Source: Salinibacterium amurskyense (GTDB taxonomy: Bacteria; Actinomycetota; Actinomycetes; Actinomycetales; Microbacteriaceae). Taken from it: a stretch of 64,000 bases of DNA. The stretch's first letter is position 1. Each line of letters begins with the position of its first letter. Below are positions 22,627 through 44,794 of the stretch, one piece after another. A program made the position numbers and the translations under genes. The DNA lies in contig NZ_PGFH01000001.1 in assembly GCF_002797685.1 (NCBI RefSeq), positions 434,001-498,000 of the forward strand. The letters run 5' to 3'. Below the pieces are notes generated by a model. The model was not told the DNA's origin, ran no database searches, and saw only the letters and a program-made list of their open reading frames with translations.

Positions 22627-23178
22627 GTGACCGACGCCAAGCAGCAGCTCATTGAGCACATTTCCGCCGATGCCGTGTTCCACGGCGACTTCACTTTGAC
22701 GAGCGGAAAGAAGGCTACTTACTACGTCGACATGCGTCGCGTGAGCCTCGACCACCGTGTTGCGCCCCTCATCGGTCAGGTCATGATTGACCTCATCGCT
22801 GACATCCCCGACATCTTTGCTGTCGGGGGGATGACGATGGGCGCCGACCCGATCGCCTCGGCCATGCTTCACCAAGGTGCCGCTCGCGGCCTCAGCTATC
22901 ACGCCTTCGTTGTTCGCAAGGAGCCCAAGGATCACGGCCGCGGCCGCCAAGTTGAGGGCCCTGAGCTCGAAGGCAAGCGCGTCATTGTTCTCGAAGACAC
23001 CTCTACCACGGGTGGTTCGCCGCTCGCTGCGATCGAAGCGCTCGAAAAGGTTGGCGCGATCATCGCCGGCGTTGCCGTCGTCGTCGATCGCGACACGGGT
23101 GCCAAGGAACGCATCGAAGCTGCCGGCTACCCCTACTACTCCGCGATTGGGCTGGGTGAACTGGGGCTGACTCCGTGA
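22627..23178 (+). CDS. pyrE: Orotate phosphoribosyltransferase
   Basis: 183 aa. The PRPP-binding motif is VIVLEDTSTTGGS (~119-131), and the upstream TSGKKATYYVDMRRVSLD and VGGMTMGADPIASAM segments match OPRTase. It makes orotidine 5'-phosphate from orotate and PRPP in pyrimidine synthesis. The start is GTG, supported by TATTCT (22615-22620) ending six bases upstream, i.e. leaderless. It overlaps the next gene by four bases (GTGA). Confidence 0.92.
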   Translation: MTDAKQQLIEHISADAVFHGDFTLTSGKKATYYVDMRRVSLDHRVAPLIGQVMIDLIADIPDIFAVGGMTMGADPIASAMLHQGAARGLSYHAFVVRKEPKDHGRGRQVEGPELEGKRVIVLEDTSTTGGSPLAAIEALEKVGAIIAGVAVVVDRDTGAKERIEAAGYPYYSAIGLGELGLTP

Positions 23179-26557: not shown

Positions 26558-29500
26558 TTGCGGCACAACAGCATCAACGTGGAGCGCACGCAGCGTAGCG
26601 CTCGAAGCGCGTTCATGCGGGGCGTGGCGTCAATCGTCGCCTTCGGTCTTCTGCTGGCCGGTCTCACCGTGATGCCCGCCACTCCGGCCGAAGCTGCCGT
26701 TGTGCAGTGGGGTACCAACGCAGGTACATCGCCCAGCTACCAAACCACCGTCAACGGTGACTTCCTTATGGCCGGTAACGGCGTTCTTTCCTGTAACCGG
26801 CCGCTCTACACGGCTGCCCAAATTGGTACCTGTACCGATCTGCACTCTGCCTCCGGCGGCAACGGCAACACGGCAAACGACAACTTCTTCCTTGAGAACT
26901 CGAACACGGTAGCCGGTTTCACCACCAACTCGAGCTCGGCGAACATCACGATCCCCGCTGGCGCCTCAGTCAAGAAGGCTTTCCTGAGTTGGAGCGCCAA
27001 CACCGGTGCCTACACCGGCATTAGCGACTACGCCTGTGCAACTCCCAACGCGACTCGCGGAGTCGCCACCATGCCCGCCGGTTCTCCCACGGGCTATCGC
27101 ACTGCCCCCGCCAAGTTGAAGGTGGGGCTTGGTCCCGTCACCACTGTGGCACCGACAACGATGCTCGAAGACCCGGTCGGCACACCCTCATCGATTTACT
27201 ACAGTGCGAGTGCCGACGTCACAACAGCATTCGCTGGAGCAACCACGGGAACGCCGCTCACGGTATCCGCCGGTGACCTCTGGGCTCCTCAGGGTGCTGG
27301 TTGCTACGCGGGCTGGACGCTCACGGTCGTTTATGACTACGGCATCTACATCCCGAGTCAGCCGCTCTCGCAGCCCCACCGCATCATTTTCTACGAAGGT
27401 CACGTTCGCATGACCGCCGCCGAGGCGCCGCTGACGGTTGCCTTCAACGGCTTCAGCGCAATCGCGACGGGAACCCGCGCAGGCTTCTCGCTCTACGAGG
27501 GCGACCGCATCATTCAGGGCGACATTGCCGAGTACTCGCGCGGAAACGGCGGCTACACCCAGATAGCCAACAGTGCCGGTAGTACGGGCAACATCGGAAT
27601 TGGTCGTGGAGAGGGCTCTGTCCGCTACACAGCACTGACCGACATTGGGCCGTTCACTAACCAGAGTGTGGATGTCGCCACCGTCGATCTGGCGAATGTG
27701 CAGTCTGGCGACACCTCGGTGAACCTCCGCATGAGCACGAGTGGTGACTCGTACCTGCTGCAAAACGCGATCCTTTCGGTGCCCAGCGCCGGAATCAATA
27801 TCTCCAAGACGTACGACGGAACGCTCGACCAGCAGTCACGTACCGCAACAGAAGCGGCGACCTTCACGATCACGGTGACGAACTCGGGCGTCGGTATTCT
27901 GCAGAACATCGTTGTTGCCGACGATCAAACAGATTGTGCGCGCACTCTCACGGGGGTAACGCTCGCTCCGCTTCAGTCATATACCTACACGTGTGTCGCC
28001 AATGGGCTAACCACAGCCAGTTATGACTCAACCGCCTCGGCGACGGCAAGCACTGTCGTGGGCAATAGTCCCGCATCAGGCTCCGACTCCACGCGTGTAC
28101 TGCTGTCCTCCCTCTCGCTCGCCAAGACGAGCGCGCTCGCCGGTGGAGCTACGGGCCGCGCAGGTGACACCCTCAACTACACCTTCACGATCAAGAACAA
28201 CGGCGACTCGCCCCTCACCGGCGTAGCCGTCACCGACCCGCTTCCCGGTCTCTCGGCGATCACCTACACCTGGCCAACGGGCACCGCTGGTGCACTCGCT
28301 GCGGGAGCCTCGGCGACCGGAACGGCGACGTACACCCTGACTCAGGCCGACGTGGACGCGGGTTCCATCGCGAACACCGCAACCGCAACCGGTACAGATG
28401 CTGACGGCGGCATCAAGCCCGTAGCGACAGCCAACCGCACCACCCCCATCCCGGTGAATGCTGTTCTCGAAACCAAGAAGACTGCCGCGTACGCCGGCGC
28501 TGGAGTCGGTAACGTCGGCGACACCGTGAACTACTCGTTCTCGGTCAAGAACACTGGAAACGTCACCCTTACCTCGGTGACGCTGACCGACCCCCTCACC
28601 GGGTTGTCTGCCATTGCAGTCACGTGGCCAGGAACCGCCGGTCGTCTTGCCCCAGGCCAAACCGCCACGGGAACCGCGACCTACACGGTGAAGCAGGACG
28701 ACGTTAACGCGGGCAAGATCGTGAACCAGGCCACGTCGAGTGGCCGCACCCCCAAGAACGTTGCCGTCACGGGCCTCAGCAACGAAGTGACCTTGGCCAC
28801 AGCGCCAGCAGCTCCCGGGCTCACCACGACGAAGTCGGGCACCGTTGCTGAGCCCAAGGGCGTCGGCAGTGTTGTCACCTACAACTTCAGCGCCAAGAAC
28901 ACCGGAAACGTCACCCTCACCGGCGTGACGATCGCTGACCCGCTCGTCGGTCTCTCCGCACTGACGTACTCGTGGCCGGCAACCGCCGGAACTCTCGCTC
29001 CGGGCCAGACCGTGACCGCCACCGCGACCTACACCGTGAAACAGTCCGACGTGGATGCCGGACTGGTGCGCAACACGGCCACCAGCTCGGGAACATCTCC
29101 CAGCGGCACTGCCGTTACTGCGGCATCCCCTCGCGTGGATGTCCCGCTGCAAACGCGCGCCCCTGCGGTATCGCTGACCAAGTCGGGAGCGCTCGCGGGC
29201 GGCTCGACCGCGGGCAGTACCGTGAACTACTCGTTCGTTCTGACCAACTCAGGCAACGTGACCCTCACGAATGCGGGCATCACCGACCCGCTCTCGGGAC
29301 TCTCGGCCATCACGTACGGCACGTGGCCCGGCACCGTCGGCACCCTTGCTCCCGGCCAGTCCGTTACCGCCACGGCAACGTACACAGTGAAGCAATCGGA
29401 TGTCGACGCCGGTGCTGTTGTGAACAGCGCGACCGCAAAGGGCACCCCTCCGACCGGAGCTGACGTGACGCGCACGACGCCCGCGACCGTTCCGATCACG

Positions 29501-32500
29501 GCCGATGCCAAGATGATCGTCACCAAAACGGGTGCTTACACCACGGGATCCGGCGCTGTCGGGTCGGTCGTCACGTACACCTTCAGCGTGAAGAACGACG
29601 GAAACGTCACCCTCAGCCAGGTCGTTCTGGCTGACCCGCTCTCGGGCCTGAGCCCCATCTCGGTAACGTGGCCCGGTGCATCCGGAGTTCTCACACCAGG
29701 GCAGACGGCCACCGGAACCGCGACGTACACGGTCAAGCAGTCTGATGTGGATGCCGGCTCGGTCAAGAACACGGCAACCGCTACGGCAAAGACTCCGACC
29801 GGCGCCACGGTGACCCAGCCTTCAGCCGAGTCTGTTGTGCCCACGGTCACACCGACCCGGGTGATCACCACCACAAAGTCGGCCGTCATCGCCGGCGGTG
29901 CGACCGGCAAGGTCGGCGACGTCATCACCTACTCGTTCAGCGCGAAGAACGACGGAAACGTCACGCTCTCGGGTGTGACCATCGCTGACCCGCTGACTGG
30001 ACTCTCGGCGCTCACCTACACGTGGCCGGGCGCCACGGGCGTGCTCGCGCCAGGCCAGGCCGTCACCGCCGTAGCGAACTACACGATCAAGCAGTCTGAT
30101 GTGAATGCCGGCTCGGTCAAGAACACGGCAACCGGTAGCGGAACCCACGGCGGCACTACCGTGACTGACCCCTCGGACGAGGTCACCGTTCCGACAGTGG
30201 CCGCGAACCCCGTCATCACCACGCTCAAATCGGGTGCGCTCGCTGCCGGTTCGACCGGCCGCGCTGGCGACACCGTGAACTTCTCGATCAAGCTCACTAA
30301 CTCGGGCAACGTCACCCTGACCTCGGTGTCGGCAACCGACACGCTTCCTGATCTCTCGGCACTCACCTACGGCACGTGGCCCTCCGGCGCCGCCGGAACG
30401 CTCGCGCCCGGCCAGTCGGTTACCGCTACCGCCACTTACACGCTCAAGCAGAGTGACGTGGATGCCGGCTCGGTATCGAACACGGCAACCGGTTCAGGCA
30501 CCCCGCCCACCGGTGCCGCCGTCACCAGCGTCAGCCCCGCCACGGTTCCGATCACGGCGGGCCCCGCGCTCACCGTCTCCAAGTCGGGGGCGATCACGAC
30601 CGGTAACGGCTCTGTCGGAGACACCATCACGTTCTCCTTCGTCGTGCGCAACACCGGTAACATCACCGCCACGAGCGTCGGCATCACCGACAGCCTTGTG
30701 GGCCTCTCCGCCGTCACCTTCGGAACCTGGCCAAGCGGCACGGCAGGCACGCTTGCCCCCAACACTCAGGTCACCGCAACCGCGACCTACGAGATCAAGC
30801 AGGCAGACGTTAACGCTGGTTCTGTTAAGAACACGGCTACGGCATCCGGCAGCACGCCCTCGGGCGGAACCGTCTCGGCGACGTCGCCGCAGGCAGTCGT
30901 TCCGACAGTGGCCTCGGCTCCCGCGATCGACACGCAAAAGTCCGCAAGCGTTGCAGGAACCGGCGCTGTGGGCGACGTCATCACGTACACGTTCATCGCC
31001 AAGAACACCGGTAACGTCACGCTCACGGGCGTCTCGATCGCTGATCCGCTCACCGGGCTTTCGGCTCTGACCTACGGCACGTGGCCTGGCGGAGTCGCAG
31101 GAACGCTGGCGCCCAACGCGCAGGTCACCGCCACGGCGACCTACACAATCGTGCAGTCCGATGTCGATGCTGGCTCGGTCAAAAACACGGCAACCTCCAC
31201 GGGCACCTTCGGTGGAACCGCTGTGACTGACCCCTCGCCGCAGGTGACGACCCCCACGATCGCCGCCGTGCGCACGATCTCTCTCGCTAAGGATGGCGCT
31301 CTCGCCGCCGGTGCCACGGGAATCGCGGGCGACACCGTTAACTACACCTTCGTCGTGCGCAACACGGGTAACGTCACGCTCACGAGCGTCGGCATCACCG
31401 ACCCGCTGCCCGGCCTCTCCGCTGTCACGTTCGGTACGTGGCCCAGCGGAACCGCAGGCCGCCTGCTGCCGAACACGCAGGTCACTGCCACGGCAACCTA
31501 TATTTTGAAGCAGTCGGATGTTGATGCTGGCTCGGTAGCCAACACGGCAACGACGCGCGGTACACCTCCCACCGGAGCTGCTGTCTCGGCCACTGACCCG
31601 GCCACCGTTGCTGTCGCCGCGAACGGCGCTCTCGCCGTGGCGAAGACGGGTGCCGTTACTTCGGGCACCGGCGGAGTCGGCAGCACGATGACCTTCTCGT
31701 TCACGATCACGAACCCCGGAAACGTCACGATGACGGGGGTCGCCATTGCGGACTCGCTCGTGGGGCTTTCGGCACCCGTCTACACCTGGCCCACCGCGAC
31801 TGCCGGGCGCATTGCTCCGGGCGAGACAGCGACAGCAACGGCCACCTATACGGTGAAGCAGGCTGACGTCAACGCTGGTTCGGTATCGAACACGGCGACC
31901 GTCTCGGGTAAGACTCCGACAAACGCAACCGCGACCTCTGCGCCGTCGACCGCCAACGTGCCCACGATCACTGGTGCGCCTCAGCTCACCACCACGAAGT
32001 CGGCCAACGTGACTTCGGGTGCCAAAGTTGGCGACTCGATCACGTACTCGATCGCGATCGCGAACACGGGAAACCAGACCATTACCGGCGTCACCCTGAC
32101 CGACTCGCTCGCGGGTCTTGCAACACCGGTCATCACGTGGCCCGGCGTTGCGGGCACGCTCGCTCCCGGCCAGACGGCAACCGCTCTTGCGAGTTACACC
32201 GTGAGGCAGTCGGATGTTGATGCGGGCTCGATCGCCAACACCGCATCGGCAGCGGGAACAGCTCCGGGCGCGACTCCCGTTGACGATGACTCCAACCCCG
32301 TGGTCACGACTACGGTCGCACCGGCCCCCACTCTGTCGCTCGTGAAGTCGGGCACGCTGCCGGCTGGTTCCACGTCGGTTGCTGGCGAGGTCGTCACGTA
32401 CAGCTTCGTCATCCGCAACACCGGCAACGTCACGATCACGGGTGCTGCGGTCACCGACCCGCTCTCGGGTCTTTCTGCGATTACCTACGGCACCTGGCCG

Positions 32501-35500
32501 TCGGGCACCACCGGAACCTTGGCACCGAACAGCCAAGTGACGGCCACCGCTACCTACACGGTGAAGCAGACGGATGTCGACGCGGGTTCGATCGCGAACA
32601 CCGCGACCGCAACGGGAACGGGTGTGAGCGGCGGCGCCGCAACTCCGAAGACCAGTAGCGCCACGGTTCCGCTCGTCTCGACCGCCAAGCTCACCGTCTC
32701 TAAGACCGGTGCAGTCGCTGCGGGCGCGAACAAGGTCGGCGACACCGTCACCTTCTCGTTCGTCGTCAAGAACACCGGTAACGTCACGCTCTCGAGCGTC
32801 GGCATCACTGACTCTCTCGCGGACCTCTCGGCTGTCACCTTCGGCACCTGGCCGGGTGGCACGACCGGAGTTCTCGCTCCCAACGCGCAGGTAACCGCGA
32901 CGGCGACGTACACAATCAAGCAGTCCGACGTGAACGCTGGCTCTGTGAAGAACACGGCTACGGCATCCGGAACCCCGCCGTCGGGCCCCGTTGCTACTGC
33001 CACGTCGCCGGAGGCCGTAGTGCCGACGGTCGCGGCCTCGCCCGCGCTCGTCACCACCAAGAGCGCTGTGGTGGGTGGCACCGGAACCGGTGTAATCGGC
33101 GACACGATCACGTACACGTTCACCGCCAAAAACACCGGTAACGTCACGCTCACGAGCGTCACTCTCGCCGACCCGCTTTCCGGACTCTCCACGCCCACTT
33201 ACGTGTGGTCGGGTGGCGTGAGCGGCCAGCTCAACCCCAACGGCACCGTCACCGGAACCGCCACGTACACAATCACGCAGGCGGATGTCGACGCCGGTTC
33301 CGTCAAGAACATTGCGACGGCCACGGGAACGCCTCCGACCGGTGCTGTCGTCACTGCTCCGTCGCCGCAGCTCGTCACGCCGACGATCGCGTCTGCACCG
33401 AAGATCGGTGTGACCAAGTCGGGCGCTCTCGCGCCGGGCGCGCAGGGTGTTGCTGGCGACGTTGTGACGTGGAGCCTGACGCTCACGAACTCGGGCAATG
33501 TGACGCTCACCTCGGTGTCGGTCACTGATTCCCTTCCCGGCGTCTCCGCCGTCACCTACGGCACGTGGCCCTCGACGGCAGGAACCTTGGCTCCAGGCCA
33601 GAGCGTTTCCGCTACCGCAACGTACGTTTTGACGCAGGCCGATATTGACGCTGGTGCTGTCTCGAACACCGCCAATGGTTCGGGTACACCGCCGCGTGGT
33701 TCACCCGCAACGGCCACTGCTCCGGCAACCCTTCCCCTTGCATCGAACTCCACCATCACGCTCGACAAGACCGCGGCCATCGTTTCTCCCGGCACTGGCG
33801 TTGTGGGCGACACCATCCGCTACACCTTCACGGCCCAGAACACCGGTAACGTCACGCTGACCAACGTGATCATCGCCGACCCGCGCCCCGGTCTCAGCGC
33901 ACTCACCTACGGCACCTGGGCCAGCGGCACTGTAGGCCGTCTCGCCCCGGGCCAGACCATCACGGCAACGGCTGACTATGTGATCCGTCAGGCCGACCAG
34001 AACGCTGGCGTTGTCAACAACACGGCGTCTGTTTCGGGCAAGCCGCCCGCTGGCCCGAACACCACGGCATCGTCTGCTGCGGTAGCTACTCCGACCGCAA
34101 CGCGCGTTCCGGGCATCCTCACCACTAAGACTTCCAGCGTTGCCGGAACCGGCGCCGTTGGCGATGTCATCACGTACACGATCACCGTGCGCAACACGGG
34201 AAACACAACCCTCACGTCGGTGTCGGCAAGTGACCCGCTCTCTGGCCTCAGCACGCTCACCTACGGTGCGTGGCCCGGTGGAGTCACCGGAACGCTACAG
34301 CCCAACACGCAGGTGGTCGCCACCGCGAAGTACACGATCAAGCAATCCGACGTGAATACGGGTTCCGTCGCGAACACAGCAACAGGTCAGGGCACGTCGC
34401 CCTCCGCCGGCGTCATCACCGACCCCTCGGATGACGTCATCACTCCGACGGTTGCCGCCAACCCTGTGGCCACCTTCGCGAAGTCTGGGGCGCTTGCTCC
34501 CGGTTCTGTTGGAGCCGCGGGCGACGTGATTACCTACACCTTCACGACGAAGAACACCGGAAACGTCACGCTCACGGGAGTTGTTGTCAGCGACCCCCTG
34601 GCCGACCTTGGTGCGATCACGTACACGTGGCCGGGCGCCACGGGCGTGCTCACCCCGGGTCAAACCGTCACGGCAACCGCCAACTACACGGTGAAGCAGT
34701 CCGATGTGGATGCTGGCTCTGTCAGCAATGCCGCAACCCTCACGGCCACGCCGCCGTCGGGTACGCCGTTCACCGAAACGGACTCGGAGACGGTCTCGAT
34801 CGCTCCTGCCCCCGGCATCACGGTGAGCAAGGTAGCGTCCGTCGGCGGAACGGGTGAAGAGGGCGACGTCATCACGTACACGATGACGATTCGCAACACG
34901 GGTAACCAGACGCTCACCGTCGTTACGCTCATCGACAACCTGCCCGGGCTGAGCGCTCCAACGTTCGTGTGGCCGGGTACTCCCAACGAGCTCGCGCCGG
35001 GTCAAACGGCGACGGCGACGGCGACGTACTCGATCGATCTCGACGACCTCAACGCCGGTGAAGTAACGAACACCGCCAGCGTGACCGCCCAGACTCCTGG
35101 TGGTGGCCCCGAGGTGAATGCAAGCTCCGGCCCCGTCGTGGTGAAGACCGGTGATCAGCGTCCCGAGCTCAGGACAACGAAGACTGCCAGCGTTGTGCCG
35201 AGCCCGGCCGCTGAAGGCACCACCATTACGTACTCCTTCCTTGTGGAGAACACCGGAAACGTGACGATTGAGAACCTCGTTCTCAACGACCCGCTACTGG
35301 GCGCTGCAACGCCAACGTTGTCGGCTACATCGCTTGATCCCGGTGAGTCCGCGACGGCAACGGCGAACTACACGATCACCCAGGCGGATGTTGACGCCGG
35401 TTCGGTGACGAACACCGCGAAGGCTGTCGGCGACACCACCGGGGGCACTCCCGCAACGGTCGAAAGCCCGGTCTCTTCGGTGACAACTCCGACCGAGCCT

Positions 35501-38500
35501 GCTGCCCCTGGTATCTCGGTCACGAAGACAGGTACCGCCGCGCAAGATGCTGGCGACCTGATCGACTGGAGCTTCACGGTTACCAACACCGGAAACGTCA
35601 CGCTCAGTGGCGTGACCCTCAACGATGCCCTTGCTGGAGTCACGCCCGTCTTCGGTGCCTTCCCCAGCGGTGTCTCGGGTCAGCTCGACCCCGGCGATAG
35701 CGTGCTCGCAACCGCCGACGACTATGTCGTAACGCAGGCGGATGTCGACGCGGGTTCCGTCGTGAACACCGTGACCGCATCCGGTACTCCGTCTCGTGGT
35801 GCGGTCGCAAACGCGACCACCGCGGCGACCGTGCCTTTGGCTCCCGACGCTGGAATCACCATCGTCAAGTCTGAAGACGCCTCGCCCGCAGACCGCGGGC
35901 TCGGCGACACCGTGAGCTTCACGTTCACCGTCACTAACACCGGTAACGTCACGCTGAGCTCGATCAGCATCATTGATCCCCTCGATGGTGTTTCGGCGAT
36001 CAGCTACGACGACTGGGACGGCAACGCCGCCGGCTCGCTCGGCCCGAACGATGTGCTGACCGCAACTGCCACGTACGTGCTCACGCAAGCCGACATCGAC
36101 CGCGGTTTCGTCGACAACGACTCAAGCGTGCTCGCTTCGACGCCCGCGGGAGTGATCCTCGACGAAGACTCCAACATCGTCACCGTCACGACCGATGCAA
36201 CGGCTCCCGTTCTCGTCACAACTAAGGCCGCAGTGCTCAACGGCACCGGCGTTGTCGGCGACACGATCAGCTACACGATCACCCTGCTGAATGACGGAAA
36301 CGTCACGCTGACGGATGCTGCGATCACCGACTCGCTCGCGGGGCTCAGCGCTCTCGTGTACGGCGAATGGGTCTCTGGCGTCGATGGCGAACTTGCTCCT
36401 GGCGAGTCTGTATCGGCCACGGCGAACTACACAATCACTCAGGCGGATGTCGATGCTGGGTCGGTCAGCAACATCGCGACCGGTGACGCCGAGTCCGCTC
36501 GCGACGGCGCTGCCGTTACGGATGACTCGCCCGCCGCAGTCACCCCTCTCGTCACTCAGGCCGCTGCTATTTCGGCGACCAAGACCGGCGCGCTGGAATC
36601 CGGCTCTGAGGGTGAAGCGGGAGACCTCATCGAGTTCTCCTTCACGATCACAAACGACGGAAACGTCACACTCACTGGCGTGACGTTGGCTGACCCGCTC
36701 ACCGATCTCTCGGCCATCACGTACACCTGGCCCACCGCGACCGACGGCGTCTTGGCTCCGGGCGAGACCGCAACGGCGGTAGCGACCTACGAGCTCAAGC
36801 AGAGCGACGTGGACTCCGGCTCTGTCGTGAACTTGGCCACACCATCCGGTGTCGACCCCAACGCCGTTGACGTTGATGGCACCGAAGTCGCCGCGACAGT
36901 GGTTGTTGAACCCGACGCAAGCCTGAGCGCGATCAAGACGGGCGAACTGCGTGCGGGGGGAATCGGCGAAGTCGGCGACATCATCGACTACTCCGTTACC
37001 GCCACCAACACCGGTAACGTCACGGTGCACGACGGCCAGCTTCTTGATCCACTTCCCGGCATTAGTGACCCCAACATCGTCTGGCCAGACCCGGCTCAGC
37101 CCGGCGTTCTCGGCGTCGGCGAGTCCGTCACCGGAACCGCGGAGTACACGCTCACCCAGGCCGACGTCGACCTCGGGTACATCGAGAACACGGCAGAAGT
37201 TCAGGCCCTCACACCGAACGATGCCGTTGTTCCGGCGACCACCAACACCGTCGTCATCCCGACGGTACGGCCCGCTCCGATCCTGACCGTCGACAAGACT
37301 GCCGTTGTCGCTGATGACGGCGAGCTCGGTGACGAAATCGCGTACTCCTTCACGATTACGAATGATGGAAATGTCACGATCGACGCCATCACCCTTGCGG
37401 ACCCACTGCCCGGTCTCACCGGCCTCACGGTCAACTGGGATGTCGCGAACACCACCCAGACGCTCGCCCCCGGTGACAGCGTCACCGCCACGGCAACGTA
37501 CGAAATCACTCAGGATGACGTGAACGCGGGAGAGGTCGTCAACACGGCGAACGCCAGCGGAACCGGTGCGCAAAGCACTCCGGTTACTGGCTCCTCACCC
37601 GAGGTCGTCACCGAGATCGTCGAGGCTGATCCCTCGCTCAGCGCGACAAAGAGCGCGGCACTCGCGACCGGCGCTACGGGCGTCGCGGGCGACACCGTGG
37701 AATTCAGCTTCACCGTGACCAACGACGGAAACGTTTCGCTGACATCGGTCGATCTGATCGACCAGTTGCCGGGTCTCACCGGAGTAACCTTCGGTGCCTG
37801 GCCTACCGCGACCGAGGGGCTTCTGAACCCGGGTGATGACGTTACGGCAACCGCAACCTACACGCTGCTTCAGAGCGACATCGATGCTGGTTCGCTCGCG
37901 AACAGCGTCAACGCCATGGGCGTTCCGCCGACGGGATCTGCTGTTACCCAGCCGGCCTCCGCGACTCTTCCTCTGACGGCAACACCGAACTTCACCATCA
38001 CGAAGTCGGGCGACTTGGGAGCCCAGTTAGGCGAAGTTGGCGACGTCGTTGACTACAGCTTCAGCATCACCAACTCCGGAAACGTCACCCTCACCGGTGT
38101 CGTTCTCATCGACTCGATGCCCGGTGTTAGCTCGCCGGTCATCACTTGGCCCGGCGTCGACCGCGTGCTTGCTCCGGGCGAGACGGCGACGGCTACAGCG
38201 AATTACACGATTACTCAGGAAGATGTCGACGCGGGTTCAGTAACGAACACTGCTGAAGCCGTGGGATCACTGCCCGATGGCACCGAGTACCTCGAGTTCT
38301 CTGACCCTGCGGTGAACCCCACGATCGCACGCACGGCTTCGGCCACGATCGACAAGGTCGGAACTACGCCGGATGGCGCGGCTCTGGGCGATCTCGTGCA
38401 GTACGAGTTCACGCTAGAAAACACCGGCAACACGACCCTCACGGGTGTCGCGATCGACGACCCGCTGGTGGGACTGTCGACCATTGTGTACTCGTGGCCC

Positions 38501-41500
38501 GGTGCTGACGGCGAGCTTGCTCCCGCTGAGGTGGCCACGGCTACCGCGTGGTACGCGATCACGCAGGACGACATTGACCTCGGATACGTGAGCAACTCGG
38601 CGGATGTCGACGCCACGTCACCACTCGGTGCCGTCGATGATTCGGTTGGCCCCATTGATGTGCCAACTGTCACTGCTGCTGCCGCGATCGAGACCACTAA
38701 GGACGGTGAACTCGAGGCGGGTGCTACCGGCTTCGCCGGCGACATCGTCGAGTACTCGTTCACTGTGCGCAACACCGGTAACGTCACGCTCACCGATGTC
38801 GAACTCTCCGACCCGCTCACGGGTCTCAGCGCTCTAACCTACTCGTGGCCGACCGCTACTGATGGAACGCTCGCCCCGGGCGAAAGCGCGACCGCGGTTG
38901 CGACCTACGAGCTCACGCAGGCTGACGTGGATGCCGGCAAGGTCGACAACATAGTGACGGCCGAGGGAACCACTCCTACGGCGACCACGGTGGATGACAC
39001 CGCTGCTGAAACGGTGACCATCACTCCTGCTCCGGTACTCACTCCGTTCAAGGAGGGCGTCATCCTCAACGGCGGCGTCGGCGCTGTCGGAGACACGATT
39101 GAGTACACCCTCACCGTGACCAACGACGGAAACGTCACGCTCTACGACGGCCAGTTGCTCGACCCGCTGCCTGGATTGTCTGTTCCGGTCATTACGTGGC
39201 CAGACCCCGCCAAGCCTGGCGAGATCCCGGTCGGCCAGTCGGTCGTCGGCGTCGCAACCTACGAGCTGACGCAGGAAGACGTTGACCGCGGCTTCATCTC
39301 GAACATTGCAGATATGTCTGCCGAGACTCCAAAGGGCGTTCTCGTGGTCGAGACCTCCAACGAGGTCATCGTTCCGACCGTTCTGCCTGCTCCGAACATC
39401 ACCGTGACCAAGTCGGGCGCGCCTCAGGGCACGGCCGACCTCGGCGACACGATCGACTACTCGTTCGAGATTCTCAACTCGGGTAACGTCACGCTGGACT
39501 CAGTCACGCTGACGGATCCGCTTCCGAACCTCTCGGCGATCACGATCACGTGGCCCACCCCGGCGACCCCCGGTGTGCTCGCTCCCGGTGAGATCGCCAC
39601 GGCGACGGCCGACTACGAAATCACACAGGACGACGTGGATGCTGGCGCCGTTCTGAACATCGCGACCGCTGATGGCGTTGACCCCAACGGCACCGATGTC
39701 ACGGATGACTCTGAAGCGAACACTGTTCCGACCGAAACGATTCGTGCCGAGGTGGAACTCACTAAGAGCGGTGTACTCGCCGACCCGGCTCGCGCCGATG
39801 AGGGCGACACCGTCAACTGGTCGTTTGAGCTGAGCAACACCGGCAACGTCACGCTCACGGGTGTAGAGATCGTTGATTCCCTCGCGGACATCTCGGCTCT
39901 GACCTACACGTGGCCCGGCGCCGACGGCACGCTCGAGGTGGGCGAATCGGTCACCGCAACGGCAACATCCACATTGACGCAGGCGCAGATCGATGCGGGA
40001 ACCGTAGAGAACGATGCTGTTGGTTCGGGAACGCCTCCGCGCGGCGACGCCGTCAGCGACCCCGCAACAGCCGCGGTCGTGCTCGCCTCGCAGGCCAGCA
40101 TGGATGTCACCAAGGCCGGCACCGTCGACGGTGCCGGCAACGCGGGCGACACGATCGATTACGACTTCGGCATCACGAACTCCGGAAACGTCACCTTGAC
40201 TCTCGTGGATCTGGTTGATGCGCTCGTCGGCGTCAGCAGCCCAGTCTTCTCATGGCCGGGAACGCCCGGAGAGCTGCAACCAGGTGAGACGGTTACGGCT
40301 ACGGCCAACTACACGATCACTCAGGATGACGTCGACCGCGGCACTGTATCGAACGTGGCGACGGCCAGCGGAAAGCCGCCCATCGGAGACACGATCACGG
40401 TGAGCACGACAGTTACCGAGACGACTGTTGCTCCGGCCGCTGCTTCGCTGCTGTTGACGAAGTCATCGAGCACGGGCGCGAGCGCTGGTGTGAACGACAT
40501 CGTCACCTACACATTCGAGGTGGAGAACACCGGAAACGTCACGGTCGACGAGATCGTGATTGCCGACCCCCTGCCCGGCCTCAGTTCTCCTGTGGTCAAC
40601 TGGCCAGGCGCCAACGGTGTTCTCGCCCCCGGCGAGACGGCAACGGCAACGGCGACCTACGCGATCACTCAGGCCGATGTTGACGCGGGCAAGGTTGACA
40701 ACACTGCCGTGGCCAATGGCACCTCTCCGACCGACGCTGCCGTTGCGAGCAACACGGCTCTTGAATCGACGCCGACGGATGCGGCTGCGCCCGACATCCT
40801 CGTCACCAAGAGCGGTGCCCTCACACCCGGTGCTGCCGGCTTCGAGGGTGACCTCGTGGAGTACGAGTTCTCGCTCACGAACAACGGTAACCAGACACTG
40901 ACAGCAGTCTCGCTGGCTGACCCGCTTCCTGGCCTGTCTGCACTCGTCTACTCGTGGCCCACCGCTACAGCCGGAACGCTTACACCCGGTGCCGTCGTCA
41001 CCGCCACGGCTACCTACGAGTTGACTCAGGATGACATTGACTCCGGCTCCGTCGCGAACATCGTCACCGGTAGCGCGACGCCGCCATCAGGCACCGCGTT
41101 CACCGAGACTGCGCCCGCCGCTGTCCCAATCGCCGCAAACGGCGAACTCGAAGCCACAAAGTGGGGCGAACTGCGTGCCGGTGGAATCGGGCAGGTTGGC
41201 GACTGGGTCGACTACCGTCTCGAAGCAACCAACACGGGCAACGTCACGCTCATCGACGGCGAACTGCGCGATCCGCTTCCTGGACTGAGCGTTCCCGTCA
41301 TCACGTGGCCGAACCCCGCGCAGCCCGGCGTTCTGTTGCCCGGCGAAACCGTCATCGGTGAAGCATCGGTCCAGCTCACGCAGGCCGACGTTGACCTTGG
41401 CTACATCTCGAACATTGCGGATGTTGGTGCTACCGATCCGAACAGTGATGACGTTCCGGCGACCACCAACGAGGTCATCGTGTACACGGTTCAGCCGCAG

Positions 41501-44500
41501 CCGAGCATGACGATTGTGAAGTCGGGCGAGATCGCTCTGACGGGCGAGAACGGCGTTGGCGACACCGTGGACTTCGAATTCGAGGTTCGCAACACCGGTA
41601 ACGTCACGATCGGTTCGATCGTTGTCACCGATCCGCTGCCCGGAATGAGCACGCCTGACGTGCAGTGGCCGACCGCAGTAGAAACTCTCGCTCCGAACGA
41701 GACGGTAACCGCAACGGCTACCTACGACATCCGTCAGTCGGATGTTGACCGTGGTTTCGTCGAGAACACGGCGAGTACCACAGCGGTTCCGGTGCGCGGC
41801 GACGCCATCGCAGCCACCTCGAACACGGTTGAGGTGCCCACTGAGGCTCCGAGCGTTGTCGTTTCGGTGACCAACGTTGGTGCCTTGACGAACCCGGGCC
41901 CGGCTGTGGAAGGCGACACCGTCACCTGGAACTACAGCTTCACGAGCACGAGTAACGTGACGCTCTCCGGCGTTGAGCTGAGCGACTTCCTCGGTTCGCT
42001 GCCGGCGGGAGACTACACCTGGCCTAACCCTGCAGCTCCGGGCGTTCTCGCTCCTGGCGACACCGTCACGGCAGTGCGCGTGCAAACGCTGACGCAGGCC
42101 GATATCGACTCGGGTGCTGTGTCGAGCGTTGTCACCGGTGAGGGAACTCCTCCGGTGGGCGCTGCGGCAACCGCCACTGCTCCGGCGACCGTCACTCTTG
42201 CGGCTGACGGCCTGCTGCAGGCGACGAAGTCGAGCGAGCTGGCTGTTGCGGGCGAGAACGGTCCTGGCGACACCATCGATTACACGATCGTGGTTACCAA
42301 CATCGGAAACGTCACGCTGCGCACGGTGACCATCACCGACAGCATCGACAACGTCTCGATCAACTCGATCGCGTGGCCCGCCAACAGTGGCGTGCTGGCT
42401 CCGGGTGAGTCGGCGACGGCGAGCGCGACCTACGTTCTCGAACAGGATGACGTCGACCGCGGTTACGTCGACAACACCGCATCCGTTCGTGGCGTCACGC
42501 CCGGCGGCGACCCTGTCACGGCGACGTCGAACGTTGACCGCGAGCTCACAGCGGTGGCTGACCCCAGCATTACCGCTGAGAAGTCAGGCGTGATGACTTC
42601 GGGTTCGGGTGAAGTCGGTTCTGAAATCACCTACAGCTTCATCGTGAAGAACACCGGAAACGTGACCCTGCGCCTCGTAGGAGTTATTGACCCGCTGATC
42701 GACGTCGTTCCCTCTGACCTCACGTTCCCCTCGGCCACCGGTATTCTCGGCCCGAACGAGCAGGCCGTCGGTTCCGTCGTGTACACCGTGACGCAAGCCG
42801 ATGTCGATAGCGGCACCGTGGAGAACACGGCGACGGCGATCGGAACGGCGCCAGACGGTACCGAAGTGACCGGTGTCTCGAACACTGTGCTCAACCCGAC
42901 CGTGGAGGCCGCGCCATCCATCGTCACTTCCCACACCGCGGCTCTCGCTGCGGGAGCAACGGGTGTGCTCGGCGACGGCATGGACTACACGTTCACGATC
43001 ACGAATGACGGAAACGTCACGCTCGATGGTGTGACGCTCTCGAACACGATCCCCGGCCTCACCGGCTTCGTCTACACCTGGCCAGACCCGGCCGCTCCGG
43101 GCGTTCTCGCCCCGGGCGAAAGTGTCACGGTCACGGCGACCCGTCTTGTTGATCAGGCGGATGTCGACGCTGGTGAAGTACGCAACGTCGCGACCGGCGA
43201 GGGTAACTCTCCCGCCGCAACCGCCGTTGATGCTGATTCTGCGGTCACCGTGGTTCCGCTCATCGAGGCGCTGTCGAGCATTGACATCGCTAAGGCGGGC
43301 GAACCGCGCGACGCCGTGAACCCCGTCGTCGTGGGTTCGTGGATCGATTACACCTTCACCGTCGAGAATACGGGCGAAACCACACTGAGCGGTGTCACTG
43401 TTGCTGACCCCAAGGTCGGAACGACAGCAGTCGTGTACGGCGCTTGGCCCGCAGCAGTCGGCGTATTGGCTCCGGGGGAGTCGGTTACGGCAACCGCGAG
43501 CTACCAGGTCACGCAGGCTGAGTTCGATGCCGGTTCGGCGTCCAATACTGCAAACGTGACTTCGACGAATCCGGCGGGCGACGACATCCTCAACACGTCG
43601 AACACCGTCGTTGTTCCGACCGCGGCAGGCTCGCCTGACATTGAGATCACGAAGACTCAGGTGCTCGCCGCTGGCGCGACCGGCAACGCGGGAGACACCG
43701 TGGAGTACAGCTTCGAGGTCACCAACACCGGTGATGTCACGCTGAACGGTGTCACGATCGCCGACGACCAGATCGATCTCAGCACGCTGACGATCACCTG
43801 GCCGGGCACTCCGGGCGTTCTCGCTCCGGGCCAGTCGGCCACGGCAACCGCAACGTACGTGCTCACTCAGGATGACGTGGATGCTGGTTCGATCAGCTCC
43901 GATGCTTCCACGGCGGGAACGCCGGTCGTGGGCGCTGTGGTGACGGACACGGCCACCGGCTCAACGCCGATTGTCGAAAACCCGTCGATGACCATCACGA
44001 AGACGAGTTCGTTCGCGACCTTCGCCCAGCAGGGTGCAACCGTGAACTACGTCATCGAGGTCGTCAACACCGGTAACGTCACGCTCACCGGCGTCGTAAT
44101 CACCGACCCCAAGCCGGGCGTATCCGCGCTCACCTACAACTGGCCGGGTACTCCTGGCGAGTTGGCTCCGGGTGAGTCAGTCACGGCAACGGCGACCTAC
44201 GTGATCACTCAGGGTGACGTGGATGTCGAACAGACCACGAACGTGGCCACGGTCGACGCGAACGCGCCCTCGGGCCCCATCGCGCCGGAAGAGGCAACCG
44301 ACGTTCTCCCGATTCCGAATGTGCCGAACATTGCGCTGACGATCTCGGGTGTGCTCGGTGCGGGCCAGCAGGGCTTCCCCGGCGATGTCGTGATCTTCAC
44401 GTATGTGGCAACCAACACGGGAACGCTGCCGTTGACGAACGTCTCGATTGCCGATCCGCGCTCCGGTCTCTCGCCCATGAACTACGGTGCGTGGCCCGGC

Positions 44501-44794
44501 GCGGTCGGCGTTCTCGCTCCTGGTGAGTCGATTACGGCAACGGCGACCTACGTCATCCGTGAAAGCGACGCGGGAACGACGCTGTACGAAACGGCAACGG
44601 TCACCAGCACCGAAATCAACTCGGGAGACCCCGTGGTGGCAGCTGCACAGACAACTTTGCAGCTACCTACCAAGGCTCTCTCTTACACTGGGTCGGATCC
44701 CCGAGGAACACTCGCAACCGGGTTGGGCACACTGCTCGCCGGCCTCGCTCTGATCCTGCTCGCACGCAGAAGACAACGACAGGAAGAATCATGA
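26558..44794 (+). CDS. Giant repetitive surface protein (DUF11-type repeats, LPxTG-like anchor)
   Basis: 6078 aa, TTG start with GGGGGAG about seven bases upstream (an ATG at 26615 is the alternative). Residues 1-46 are a signal peptide (hydrophobic VASIVAFGLLLAGLTV, cleavage near AEA). Residues ~47-400 are a unique N-terminal domain. I find six cysteines, all before residue ~485, and none in the repeats. About 47 Ig-like DUF11 repeats of ~117 residues follow (core NTGNVTLT..DPL.GLS...WP....LAPGQ). The C-terminus has LSYTG (6041-6045), a hydrophobic helix and RRRQRQ, a cell-wall sorting signal. A rod-like adhesin or cell-surface filament is likely. No sortase gene lies in the window. A lipoprotein gene is coupled at its 3' end. 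Confidence 0.85.
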   Translation: MRHNSINVERTQRSARSAFMRGVASIVAFGLLLAGLTVMPATPAEAAVVQWGTNAGTSPSYQTTVNGDFLMAGNGVLSCNRPLYTAAQIGTCTDLHSASGGNGNTANDNFFLENSNTVAGFTTNSSSANITIPAGASVKKAFLSWSANTGAYTGISDYACATPNATRGVATMPAGSPTGYRTAPAKLKVGLGPVTTVAPTTMLEDPVGTPSSIYYSASADVTTAFAGATTGTPLTVSAGDLWAPQGAGCYAGWTLTVVYDYGIYIPSQPLSQPHRIIFYEGHVRMTAAEAPLTVAFNGFSAIATGTRAGFSLYEGDRIIQGDIAEYSRGNGGYTQIANSAGSTGNIGIGRGEGSVRYTALTDIGPFTNQSVDVATVDLANVQSGDTSVNLRMSTSGDSYLLQNAILSVPSAGINISKTYDGTLDQQSRTATEAATFTITVTNSGVGILQNIVVADDQTDCARTLTGVTLAPLQSYTYTCVANGLTTASYDSTASATASTVVGNSPASGSDSTRVLLSSLSLAKTSALAGGATGRAGDTLNYTFTIKNNGDSPLTGVAVTDPLPGLSAITYTWPTGTAGALAAGASATGTATYTLTQADVDAGSIANTATATGTDADGGIKPVATANRTTPIPVNAVLETKKTAAYAGAGVGNVGDTVNYSFSVKNTGNVTLTSVTLTDPLTGLSAIAVTWPGTAGRLAPGQTATGTATYTVKQDDVNAGKIVNQATSSGRTPKNVAVTGLSNEVTLATAPAAPGLTTTKSGTVAEPKGVGSVVTYNFSAKNTGNVTLTGVTIADPLVGLSALTYSWPATAGTLAPGQTVTATATYTVKQSDVDAGLVRNTATSSGTSPSGTAVTAASPRVDVPLQTRAPAVSLTKSGALAGGSTAGSTVNYSFVLTNSGNVTLTNAGITDPLSGLSAITYGTWPGTVGTLAPGQSVTATATYTVKQSDVDAGAVVNSATAKGTPPTGADVTRTTPATVPITADAKMIVTKTGAYTTGSGAVGSVVTYTFSVKNDGNVTLSQVVLADPLSGLSPISVTWPGASGVLTPGQTATGTATYTVKQSDVDAGSVKNTATATAKTPTGATVTQPSAESVVPTVTPTRVITTTKSAVIAGGATGKVGDVITYSFSAKNDGNVTLSGVTIADPLTGLSALTYTWPGATGVLAPGQAVTAVANYTIKQSDVNAGSVKNTATGSGTHGGTTVTDPSDEVTVPTVAANPVITTLKSGALAAGSTGRAGDTVNFSIKLTNSGNVTLTSVSATDTLPDLSALTYGTWPSGAAGTLAPGQSVTATATYTLKQSDVDAGSVSNTATGSGTPPTGAAVTSVSPATVPITAGPALTVSKSGAITTGNGSVGDTITFSFVVRNTGNITATSVGITDSLVGLSAVTFGTWPSGTAGTLAPNTQVTATATYEIKQADVNAGSVKNTATASGSTPSGGTVSATSPQAVVPTVASAPAIDTQKSASVAGTGAVGDVITYTFIAKNTGNVTLTGVSIADPLTGLSALTYGTWPGGVAGTLAPNAQVTATATYTIVQSDVDAGSVKNTATSTGTFGGTAVTDPSPQVTTPTIAAVRTISLAKDGALAAGATGIAGDTVNYTFVVRNTGNVTLTSVGITDPLPGLSAVTFGTWPSGTAGRLLPNTQVTATATYILKQSDVDAGSVANTATTRGTPPTGAAVSATDPATVAVAANGALAVAKTGAVTSGTGGVGSTMTFSFTITNPGNVTMTGVAIADSLVGLSAPVYTWPTATAGRIAPGETATATATYTVKQADVNAGSVSNTATVSGKTPTNATATSAPSTANVPTITGAPQLTTTKSANVTSGAKVGDSITYSIAIANTGNQTITGVTLTDSLAGLATPVITWPGVAGTLAPGQTATALASYTVRQSDVDAGSIANTASAAGTAPGATPVDDDSNPVVTTTVAPAPTLSLVKSGTLPAGSTSVAGEVVTYSFVIRNTGNVTITGAAVTDPLSGLSAITYGTWPSGTTGTLAPNSQVTATATYTVKQTDVDAGSIANTATATGTGVSGGAATPKTSSATVPLVSTAKLTVSKTGAVAAGANKVGDTVTFSFVVKNTGNVTLSSVGITDSLADLSAVTFGTWPGGTTGVLAPNAQVTATATYTIKQSDVNAGSVKNTATASGTPPSGPVATATSPEAVVPTVAASPALVTTKSAVVGGTGTGVIGDTITYTFTAKNTGNVTLTSVTLADPLSGLSTPTYVWSGGVSGQLNPNGTVTGTATYTITQADVDAGSVKNIATATGTPPTGAVVTAPSPQLVTPTIASAPKIGVTKSGALAPGAQGVAGDVVTWSLTLTNSGNVTLTSVSVTDSLPGVSAVTYGTWPSTAGTLAPGQSVSATATYVLTQADIDAGAVSNTANGSGTPPRGSPATATAPATLPLASNSTITLDKTAAIVSPGTGVVGDTIRYTFTAQNTGNVTLTNVIIADPRPGLSALTYGTWASGTVGRLAPGQTITATADYVIRQADQNAGVVNNTASVSGKPPAGPNTTASSAAVATPTATRVPGILTTKTSSVAGTGAVGDVITYTITVRNTGNTTLTSVSASDPLSGLSTLTYGAWPGGVTGTLQPNTQVVATAKYTIKQSDVNTGSVANTATGQGTSPSAGVITDPSDDVITPTVAANPVATFAKSGALAPGSVGAAGDVITYTFTTKNTGNVTLTGVVVSDPLADLGAITYTWPGATGVLTPGQTVTATANYTVKQSDVDAGSVSNAATLTATPPSGTPFTETDSETVSIAPAPGITVSKVASVGGTGEEGDVITYTMTIRNTGNQTLTVVTLIDNLPGLSAPTFVWPGTPNELAPGQTATATATYSIDLDDLNAGEVTNTASVTAQTPGGGPEVNASSGPVVVKTGDQRPELRTTKTASVVPSPAAEGTTITYSFLVENTGNVTIENLVLNDPLLGAATPTLSATSLDPGESATATANYTITQADVDAGSVTNTAKAVGDTTGGTPATVESPVSSVTTPTEPAAPGISVTKTGTAAQDAGDLIDWSFTVTNTGNVTLSGVTLNDALAGVTPVFGAFPSGVSGQLDPGDSVLATADDYVVTQADVDAGSVVNTVTASGTPSRGAVANATTAATVPLAPDAGITIVKSEDASPADRGLGDTVSFTFTVTNTGNVTLSSISIIDPLDGVSAISYDDWDGNAAGSLGPNDVLTATATYVLTQADIDRGFVDNDSSVLASTPAGVILDEDSNIVTVTTDATAPVLVTTKAAVLNGTGVVGDTISYTITLLNDGNVTLTDAAITDSLAGLSALVYGEWVSGVDGELAPGESVSATANYTITQADVDAGSVSNIATGDAESARDGAAVTDDSPAAVTPLVTQAAAISATKTGALESGSEGEAGDLIEFSFTITNDGNVTLTGVTLADPLTDLSAITYTWPTATDGVLAPGETATAVATYELKQSDVDSGSVVNLATPSGVDPNAVDVDGTEVAATVVVEPDASLSAIKTGELRAGGIGEVGDIIDYSVTATNTGNVTVHDGQLLDPLPGISDPNIVWPDPAQPGVLGVGESVTGTAEYTLTQADVDLGYIENTAEVQALTPNDAVVPATTNTVVIPTVRPAPILTVDKTAVVADDGELGDEIAYSFTITNDGNVTIDAITLADPLPGLTGLTVNWDVANTTQTLAPGDSVTATATYEITQDDVNAGEVVNTANASGTGAQSTPVTGSSPEVVTEIVEADPSLSATKSAALATGATGVAGDTVEFSFTVTNDGNVSLTSVDLIDQLPGLTGVTFGAWPTATEGLLNPGDDVTATATYTLLQSDIDAGSLANSVNAMGVPPTGSAVTQPASATLPLTATPNFTITKSGDLGAQLGEVGDVVDYSFSITNSGNVTLTGVVLIDSMPGVSSPVITWPGVDRVLAPGETATATANYTITQEDVDAGSVTNTAEAVGSLPDGTEYLEFSDPAVNPTIARTASATIDKVGTTPDGAALGDLVQYEFTLENTGNTTLTGVAIDDPLVGLSTIVYSWPGADGELAPAEVATATAWYAITQDDIDLGYVSNSADVDATSPLGAVDDSVGPIDVPTVTAAAAIETTKDGELEAGATGFAGDIVEYSFTVRNTGNVTLTDVELSDPLTGLSALTYSWPTATDGTLAPGESATAVATYELTQADVDAGKVDNIVTAEGTTPTATTVDDTAAETVTITPAPVLTPFKEGVILNGGVGAVGDTIEYTLTVTNDGNVTLYDGQLLDPLPGLSVPVITWPDPAKPGEIPVGQSVVGVATYELTQEDVDRGFISNIADMSAETPKGVLVVETSNEVIVPTVLPAPNITVTKSGAPQGTADLGDTIDYSFEILNSGNVTLDSVTLTDPLPNLSAITITWPTPATPGVLAPGEIATATADYEITQDDVDAGAVLNIATADGVDPNGTDVTDDSEANTVPTETIRAEVELTKSGVLADPARADEGDTVNWSFELSNTGNVTLTGVEIVDSLADISALTYTWPGADGTLEVGESVTATATSTLTQAQIDAGTVENDAVGSGTPPRGDAVSDPATAAVVLASQASMDVTKAGTVDGAGNAGDTIDYDFGITNSGNVTLTLVDLVDALVGVSSPVFSWPGTPGELQPGETVTATANYTITQDDVDRGTVSNVATASGKPPIGDTITVSTTVTETTVAPAAASLLLTKSSSTGASAGVNDIVTYTFEVENTGNVTVDEIVIADPLPGLSSPVVNWPGANGVLAPGETATATATYAITQADVDAGKVDNTAVANGTSPTDAAVASNTALESTPTDAAAPDILVTKSGALTPGAAGFEGDLVEYEFSLTNNGNQTLTAVSLADPLPGLSALVYSWPTATAGTLTPGAVVTATATYELTQDDIDSGSVANIVTGSATPPSGTAFTETAPAAVPIAANGELEATKWGELRAGGIGQVGDWVDYRLEATNTGNVTLIDGELRDPLPGLSVPVITWPNPAQPGVLLPGETVIGEASVQLTQADVDLGYISNIADVGATDPNSDDVPATTNEVIVYTVQPQPSMTIVKSGEIALTGENGVGDTVDFEFEVRNTGNVTIGSIVVTDPLPGMSTPDVQWPTAVETLAPNETVTATATYDIRQSDVDRGFVENTASTTAVPVRGDAIAATSNTVEVPTEAPSVVVSVTNVGALTNPGPAVEGDTVTWNYSFTSTSNVTLSGVELSDFLGSLPAGDYTWPNPAAPGVLAPGDTVTAVRVQTLTQADIDSGAVSSVVTGEGTPPVGAAATATAPATVTLAADGLLQATKSSELAVAGENGPGDTIDYTIVVTNIGNVTLRTVTITDSIDNVSINSIAWPANSGVLAPGESATASATYVLEQDDVDRGYVDNTASVRGVTPGGDPVTATSNVDRELTAVADPSITAEKSGVMTSGSGEVGSEITYSFIVKNTGNVTLRLVGVIDPLIDVVPSDLTFPSATGILGPNEQAVGSVVYTVTQADVDSGTVENTATAIGTAPDGTEVTGVSNTVLNPTVEAAPSIVTSHTAALAAGATGVLGDGMDYTFTITNDGNVTLDGVTLSNTIPGLTGFVYTWPDPAAPGVLAPGESVTVTATRLVDQADVDAGEVRNVATGEGNSPAATAVDADSAVTVVPLIEALSSIDIAKAGEPRDAVNPVVVGSWIDYTFTVENTGETTLSGVTVADPKVGTTAVVYGAWPAAVGVLAPGESVTATASYQVTQAEFDAGSASNTANVTSTNPAGDDILNTSNTVVVPTAAGSPDIEITKTQVLAAGATGNAGDTVEYSFEVTNTGDVTLNGVTIADDQIDLSTLTITWPGTPGVLAPGQSATATATYVLTQDDVDAGSISSDASTAGTPVVGAVVTDTATGSTPIVENPSMTITKTSSFATFAQQGATVNYVIEVVNTGNVTLTGVVITDPKPGVSALTYNWPGTPGELAPGESVTATATYVITQGDVDVEQTTNVATVDANAPSGPIAPEEATDVLPIPNVPNIALTISGVLGAGQQGFPGDVVIFTYVATNTGTLPLTNVSIADPRSGLSPMNYGAWPGAVGVLAPGESITATATYVIRESDAGTTLYETATVTSTEINSGDPVVAAAQTTLQLPTKALSYTGSDPRGTLATGLGTLLAGLALILLARRRQRQEES
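28110..44670 (+). repeat. Array of about 47 DUF11-like coding repeats, ~353-bp period
   Basis: Counting the N-[TDS]-G-N-V core by eye gives 47 units, from ~28196 to ~44409, mean spacing ~353 bp. The preceding segment (27790-28100) is a degenerate extra unit. Units follow a three-unit higher-order order (see findings). Units 2-20 and 21-47 differ in charge at fixed positions, with a switch near 35.2 kb. DNA identity between units is moderate, not exact, so the array is old and maintained as protein. Confidence 0.85.
44678..44784 (+). other. LPxTG-like cell-wall sorting signal of the giant protein
   Basis: LSYTG-SDP, a helix TLLAGLALILLA and a basic RRRQRQ tail form the standard tripartite sorting signal, but the motif is LSYTG rather than LPxTG. 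Related LxxTG forms occur in actinobacterial sortase substrates. It probably marks covalent attachment to peptidoglycan by a sortase encoded elsewhere. Confidence 0.65.

Follow-up and report, generated by a model that had tools for sequence, protein, structure and literature searches.

The window analysed here, a 64,000-nucleotide stretch of the genome of Salinibacterium amurskyense (NCBI RefSeq assembly GCF_002797685.1, contig NZ_PGFH01000001.1, positions 434,001 to 498,000 of the forward strand), carries the gene for a giant surface protein, whose parts are listed in Table 1. The gene product would be a fibrillar rod made up of a wall anchor, 47 Ig-like domains of the CLIPPER_2 family and an N-terminal head. 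Along most of the rod every third domain belongs to a recognisable class, here called A, and near the anchor the residues of a predicted covalent lock are lost at A slots. The protein has the tandem-domain stalk and surface anchor by which fibrillar adhesins are recognised, the anchor motif being judged by eye. We take the combination of LSYTG, a hydrophobic stretch and an arginine-rich end to be an anchor of the sortase-like class, and two sortase genes are present elsewhere in the genome of this probably marine host. The head has no sequence match in Pfam, NCBIfam or PDB, and no recognised adhesive domain came from these searches.

Table 1. The giant surface protein gene and its parts, in window positions (U, array unit; HMM, hidden Markov model)
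Feature	Position	Strand	Basis or remark
Giant surface protein gene	26558..44794	+	6078 aa, single open frame; presumed TTG start behind purine-rich GGGGGAGAGAG
Signal-peptide region (MRGVASIVAFGLLLAGLTVMPATPAEA)	26558..26695	+	Sequence, judged by eye
N-terminal head, ~395 aa	26696..27877	+	Without database family match; accompanies arrays in other genera
Degenerate unit 0	27821..28075	+	Unit HMM 4.5 bits; PF24346 22.5 bits, under the 27-bit cut-off
Array of 47 DUF7507 (CLIPPER_2) units, 114-120 aa each	28106..44677	+	47 matches above Pfam cut-off
Fourteen A-B-C triplets, U01-U42	28106..42913	+	Identity by offset, profiles, unit tree
Six-unit beat, U25-30 / U31-36 / U37-42	36563..42913	+	Offset-6 excess; U26/U32/U38 residuals 0.185-0.258
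Tail U43-U47, register slip A-B-A-B-A	42914..44677	+	Profile scoring; window U43 itself scores C
U40, A slot, broken triad N-D-S (for K-D-N)	41855..42208	+	Alignment
U43, A slot, broken triad H-N-N	42914..43273	+	Alignment
U45, A by profile, broken triad K-D-S	43634..43981	+	Profile and alignment
U47, A by profile, broken triad I-D-E	44324..44677	+	Profile and alignment
C-terminal anchor: LSYTG, hydrophobic stretch, RRRQRQEES	44678..44794	+	Sequence, by eye; sortase-like

All 47 units score above 27 bits, the Pfam cut-off for DUF7507 (PF24346), and a Pfam scan of the two halves of the protein gives 22 and 25 DUF7507 stretches. The original prediction, made from the sequence of the window, had ended the array at position 42300; the 47 units run on for about 2.4 kb beyond that point. 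DUF7507 was named CLIPPER_2 in a survey that, in the parts drawn on here, predicts an intramolecular Lys-Asp-Asn isopeptide bond, gives a solved structure for the related DUF11 domain, and reports that a Lys-to-Ala change in that domain lowers its thermal and protease stability (PMC12617251). By analogy with the triads listed in those parts, K7, D44 and N91 were assigned as the triad residues of our units (PMC12617251). Two alignment methods find this triad intact in 43 of the 47 window units, and each normal unit is predicted to close an internal Lys-Asn isopeptide bond. A structure model of U07-U09 contains three Ig-like domains in series, with a predicted local distance difference test (pLDDT) value of 97 and a predicted template modelling (pTM) score of 0.79. 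Foldseek and VIA-align matched the model to extended multi-Ig, integrin-leg or cadherin-like chains at low TM or moderate Z, and no assignment rests on these matches. Elsewhere in the host genome there is also a 583-aa frame with two DUF7507 matches (G000:C2:527055-527648; here and below G numbers denote genomes).

Is the array built in threes? Mean unit identity at offsets 1 to 6 is 0.453, 0.443, 0.484, 0.438, 0.445 and 0.500, and multiples of three exceed other offsets (up to 24) by 0.0329, a value reached in none of 2000 permutations (mean -0.0001, standard deviation 0.0032). The excess is present in units 1-20 (+0.0535, 0/2000 permutations) and in units 21-47 (+0.0247, 1/2000), and across the whole window array periods of 2, 4, 5, 7, 8, 10 and 11 show none. 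In a ten-species average with row effects removed, all of the 20 strongest unit pairs lie at multiples of three, against 6.4 expected, as do 41 of the strongest 50, against 16.0. Similarity thus peaks at block multiples, as in a super-repeat. The original prediction of a three-unit higher-order repeat, with excess similarity at 3, 6, 9 and so on in an all-against-all comparison, is borne out by the excess found (+0.033), which is the reverse of the flat profile that would have spoken against it; its period of about 1.06 kb agrees with a mean triplet length of 1058 bp.

The three classes that were proposed differ in how well they hold. Class A is sharp, while B and C are weakly distinct: on the unit tree A versus non-A needs one change (11.9 in shuffles) and B versus C needs nine (9.8 in shuffles). 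The 14 A units of U1-U40 form two groups on this tree, the sole non-A-labelled member being U45, which is A by profile. Leave-one-out profiles assign 23 of the 28 B and C units within U1-U42 as labelled. They also assign to A 14 of the 15 units in the proposed series 1, 4, ..., 43, which fails at its last member, as U43 has an A start without an A tail and scores C. Beyond that point U45 and U47 score A and U46 does not. An A profile built from the genus gives an A score to units 43, 45 and 47 in G159, G070, G166, G268 and G220, and not in G264. In the last 27 units of the window offset 6 exceeds offset 3 (0.459 versus 0.426), chiefly through U25-U42.

One might think that such a pattern serves to keep adjacent domains dissimilar, and so prevents misfolding between neighbours. 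Adjacent identity is about 0.45, below the 50% that one report, in the part drawn on here, calls usual between adjacent domains (PMC8201768). The residual at offset 1, however, is +0.5, against -0.2, 0.0 and -0.5 at offsets 4, 5 and 7. Neighbours are no less alike than other non-multiples of three, and this explanation, which is not supported, is very improbable.

The original prediction also took the register as a sign that the array grew by duplication of three-unit blocks. As history this is supported. Neighbouring unit pairs rise jointly along diagonals (r 0.28, null standard deviation 0.057), though r falls to 0.10 after offset means are removed, and the 35-unit array of G097 best matches that of G166, from its own genus, at shifts 0, 6 and 12 (0.423, 0.443 and 0.452; other shifts 0.368-0.414). 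As a current process it does not stand. Fourfold silent sites in the window match at 0.366-0.413 across offsets 1-18 with no period; the period-3 excess is confined to the amino-acid level, and recent tandem duplication is rejected as its source. Among 12 arrays the silent sites at offsets 1-6 show no clear peak at each array's own period: of the arrays with period 2 described below, G260, G305 and G214 exceed their offset-1 value at offset 2 by only 0.016-0.031 and G370 does not exceed it, and the short array of G028 is noisy. Because the window silent sites lack a period, and the number of units does not vary between species of the genus that have nearly saturated silent sites, array growth is not ongoing.

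How constant is the count? The head was found in 10 of 27 Salinibacterium genomes, and these ten are also the ones with a C-terminal match; in the family Microbacteriaceae it was found in 28 of 398 genomes. From these 28, G309 (a fragment) and G416 (a weak match) were excluded, and G109 and G229 yielded no units; the arrays of G105 and G184 stop at contig ends, and the first counted unit of G375 is weak. The ten genus arrays, the window and nine orthologs, have 47 units each, that of G016 lying in two frames. In the nine orthologs the best match is to the window unit of the same number for 46 or 47 of 47 units, and for the most distant species (G018, G016 and G005) silent sites are near background (0.39-0.42 versus 0.34-0.37). 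Five arrays from three further genera (G159, G070, G166, G268 and G220) also have 47 units, which brings the total to 15 across four genera. Between genera mean identity is highest at shift 0 (0.48-0.54) and next best at shift 6 (0.45-0.49); single units often match a differently numbered unit better, so that the correspondence holds on average. G264 has 46 units, lacking U47, in a count that leaves out a weak first match treated as unit 0.

It is possible that the fixed count is passive, the units being too diverged to recombine, with no selection for a ruler length. For pairs of window units the longest stretch of exact identity has a median of 11 bp, and for pairs in 11 other arrays the median is 10-15 bp; changes do happen, as the 35 units of G097 and the 46 of G264 attest. 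Still, in 11 of 12 arrays at least one unit pair is identical over 26-45 bp, and nevertheless 15 arrays have the same count. We regard the matter as evenly balanced, and a passive count is compatible with the explanation that we favour below.

Several irregularities were seen among the genus arrays. U20 of G021 is 51% identical to window U20 and 90% identical to U20 of G026, while most other G021 units are more than 80% identical to the window (L022, L025); this looks like an allelic block swap via recombination. The G016 array is frame-broken in U05 (L027) and the G010 head lies in two frames (L029), through sequencing error or true breaks.

The four broken triads of the window are those of U40, U43, U45 and U47, all A slots (4 of 17 A slots versus 0 of 30 others, p 0.013). 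Since every break lies in an A slot near the anchor, the register of the repeats doubles there as a lock register. The same four triads are broken in all 15 of the 47-unit arrays, where U42, U44 and U46 are intact, and the equivalent four are broken in G097. In the ten Salinibacterium arrays U41 is intact as well, and the other non-A breaks are U38 (G018 and G016) and the frame-broken U05 of G016. The association extends further up the rod in G070, where A slots 19, 25, 28, 31, 34, 37, 40, 43, 45 and 47 are broken, plus one non-A unit (10/17 A versus 1/30 non-A, p 3.4e-5); under the register of the original prediction, units 1-42, the counts are 7/14 versus 1/28 (p 8.4e-4). In G070 and in the 38-unit arrays described below, K7 or N91 tracks the register more closely than most other near-invariant columns. 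The second of the two triad procedures, a pairwise alignment to 11 reference units, agrees with the first on the window and most arrays. The two differ at U18 and U30 of G159, U19 of G305, U13 and U71 of G183, three units of G221, one each of G375 and G040, and much of the distant G042, and the alignment used for G183 puts U23 and U24 of the window out of place. Counting triad motifs without alignment gave false alarms at U1, U16 and others and was discarded.

A different register is found in four arrays with a related head (G260, G305, G214 and G370), whose 38 units repeat with period 2 (z 7.9 to 10.2), period 3 being absent. They match one another at shift 0 and show no unit-by-unit match to the 47-unit arrays, except for unit 1. 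In units 12-38 a strong period 2 (z 8.3-10.4) is seen after masking of the triad columns. The triads are broken in 13 of 13 even units from 12 to 36 and in 0-2 of 19 odd units. In the head tree the 38-unit arrays nest, tentatively, inside the period-3 arrays, and the approximately unbiased (AU) test does not reject period-3 monophyly (p 0.43). G183 (L053, L060) has both registers: its 74 units, counted across a frame break, follow a period of 3 over units 1-25 (z 3.4) and of 2 over units 26-50 and 51-74 (z 6.2 and 9.1). In alignments with the 47-unit arrays its opening 12 units pair best with their opening 12, and its closing 12 with their closing 12. In units 37-74 of G183 the even triads are broken in 19/19 and the odd in 6 or 7 of 19, depending on alignment. 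G183 is possibly a snapshot of one repeat register overgrowing another. As the period is 2 or 3 between arrays and within G183, block size belongs to the lineage and segment and not to the domain. No period is seen in the distant arrays of G042 (17 units), G028 (8) and G040 (27).

What accounts for the association of lock and register? The amplified block might have held one divergent unit by chance, the period and the lock pattern being inherited by-products of copying without present use. Block duplication is a common growth mode of domain repeats, according to the part of one study drawn on here (PMC1553488). The even units 12-36 of the period-2 arrays are nearly all K-D-S, as expected of copies, and the columns that discriminate the classes evolve no more slowly than others (0.184 versus 0.177 singletons per site). 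Set against this, A slots 19, 25, 28, 31, 34 and 37, broken in G070, are intact in the window at the same numbers; therefore triad state changed after the array was built. In addition, the alternation of broken U40, U43, U45 and U47 with intact U42, U44 and U46 has persisted in every 47-unit array, despite the near-saturated silent sites between distant species of the genus. We consider this explanation by copying unlikely.

Alternatively, constraint may be relaxed near the wall, where the last domains would be buried and the bond, no longer needed, would decay, with gene conversion among similar A units spreading the loss. In the period-3 arrays broken triads do lie mostly toward the C terminus, and the period-3 excess of G070 rises from 0.035 in units 1-18 to 0.067 in units 19-42, as if A units there were kept alike. 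Simple decay should not, however, spare U41, U42, U44 and U46 in all ten Salinibacterium arrays, nor does it fit the period-2 alternation, which begins at unit 12 of 38, far from the anchor. Relaxed constraint seems to us a slightly poorer prospect still than inheritance from a founding block.

A number of observations weigh against any reading in which register and lock are functionally linked. The lock pattern of the window touches four units, all near the C terminus; every triad in units 1-39 is intact, and for the triplet in U1-U39 of the window no role beyond history is put forward. The A status of U45 and U47 rests on profile, and that of U43 on position and start only. With the strict register of units 1-42 the window gives 1/14 versus 0/28 (p 0.33), G159 gives 3/14 versus 4/28 (p 0.43), and p is 0.11 for G005, 0.25 for G018, 0.064 for G264, and 0.037 for G166 and G220. 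The tail pattern is exact in 12 of the 15 arrays, U41 being additionally broken in G166, G268 and G220, which also break C-slot units 27, 30, 33 and 36, and several non-A units are broken in G264. In the window the column control is unclean, with losses at T36 (3/3), N34 (3/4) and Y77 (4/5) also falling in A; losses at Y77 (7/10) in G070 and D83 (4/5) in G260 fall there too. All of these p values treat units as independent, though units are duplicated and species share descent. In units 1-11 of the 38-unit arrays period 2 is undetectable, in a segment test with few units, and all triads are intact. Lock loss does not always accompany a period, because G221 has period 2 (z 4.3) with triads intact in 30/33 or 33/33, depending on alignment.

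Class-specific selection on ordinary residues, likewise, is not clearly shown, the tests being negative or ambiguous. The derived-singleton test was conditioned on the ancestral residue, an unconditioned first version having been biased and set aside. Over all columns (N 825) it gives p 0.30, and over the discriminating columns p 0.025. For A versus non-A on the discriminating columns p is 0.001, rising to 0.063 without G016 and 0.265 without G016 and G005; G016 alone gives 0/1000, a signal that could reflect unknown polarity, because this species is the most distant one. The discriminating columns are concentrated at unit ends (18/48 versus 8/71, p 0.0012, by hand counts), which may simply be the most variable parts, so the clustering is not relied on. 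The functional triplet along the rod that the original prediction suggested is thus retained in part: the A slot is the site of the broken triad near the anchor, but most of the window's register lies over intact locks, the selection tests give little help, and, since sister rods use period two, three is not a required number.

In the nine other carriers of the genus the gene is flanked, as in the window, by genes for a HAD hydrolase and a SpoU methylase. Carriers from other genera have it near these two genes, on the opposite side or about 10 kb off, and in G264 it is on a separate contig. In seven Salinibacterium genomes without the array the two neighbour genes are 0.9-2.0 kb apart in six and 11.4 kb apart in G017, and two of these sites that were read contain no array. 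At the array site of G017 (L066), about 10 kb of other open frames lie between the SpoU and methyltransferase genes. Elsewhere in the window, the frame at 23175-24686 (+) has a Septum_form match, plus 27-bp and 30/60-bp tandem repeats.

What evolutionary steps might have produced such a rod? The account toward which we lean, by a modest measure, is of a wall-anchored rod frozen at 47 units, in which the A slot is the slot where the isopeptide bond was given up and the anchor end acts as a force buffer. The pattern, the count and the triad states are matters of sequence; from them we infer the bond and the mechanics. A Microbacteriaceae-like ancestor would have amplified a block in which one A-type unit was joined by two others, later amplification may have proceeded partly by pairs of triplets, and the array would then have frozen, at a count that is now constant. 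A normal domain, judged by its triad, would close its internal Lys-Asn bond. The A slot would forgo it, at the four anchor-nearest A slots in every 47-unit array and further up the rod in other genera. The distal rod, fully cross-linked, would be stiff and protease-resistant. At the anchor end, regularly spaced domains without the cross-link would unfold and refold under pull between locked neighbours, and might so buffer force while the reach of the head stays constant. More tentatively, and with rather less conviction, one may think of a position code, in which a register of three or two sets locked versus unfoldable slots; the chain would be a stiff spacer in its distal part and would buffer force periodically at the anchor, its exact number of domains serving as a ruler.

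Domain block duplication (PMC1553488) and isopeptide stalks are already known. Within the parts of the open-access literature drawn on here we came across neither a description of this constant 47-domain rod nor one of a repeat register in step with the presence of the isopeptide bond. Long bacterial stalks are often read as plain spacers, with a length that drifts by recombination; the 47-domain rod keeps its number and its unit order across species and genera. Near the anchor, moreover, the register coincides with whether a predicted covalent lock is present, and it does so in two sets of arrays of different build, one with period 3 and one with period 2.

The comparisons that follow hold for the portions of each source used here. 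The closest relatives are the fibrillar-adhesin stalks of CLIPPER_2 (DUF7507, PF24346) and CLIPPER (DUF11) domains, with which the rod shares its domain family, the Lys-Asp-Asn triad, a tandem stalk, a signal peptide and a C-terminal anchor (PMC12617251). On these points that source mentions only that the bond is missing from some DUF11 domains and that stalks often have DUF11 alternating with DUF7507 (PMC12617251). The present rods differ in their constant count across genera, their register of three or two, and their register-tied loss of the triad. Periscope Proteins likewise have a bacterial tandem-domain stalk that projects a head, but theirs consists of near-identical repeats in variable numbers (PMC8201768), whereas our units share about 53-57% DNA identity (mean 0.526-0.570 by offset) and number 47 in all ten arrays of the genus, that is, between species. 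Repeats that expand by several domains in one step give autocorrelation peaks spaced by the block size (PMC1553488), as the rod does; the rod differs in being bacterial, in its unit-by-unit orthology, and in having a chemical correlate of the register. The A-band super-repeats of titin, a subject also of PMC7427331 and PMC5648799, resemble the rod in having Ig-like domains grouped in blocks, recursive duplication of these blocks, a likeness that follows block position, and fixed length (PMC10665226). We claim no homology, and the titin repeat is tied to the thick filament (PMC10665226), unlike the rod, which has no known partner lattice. With the rod, the mechanical meaning of super-repeats becomes testable in a bacterium, via singly expressed domains.

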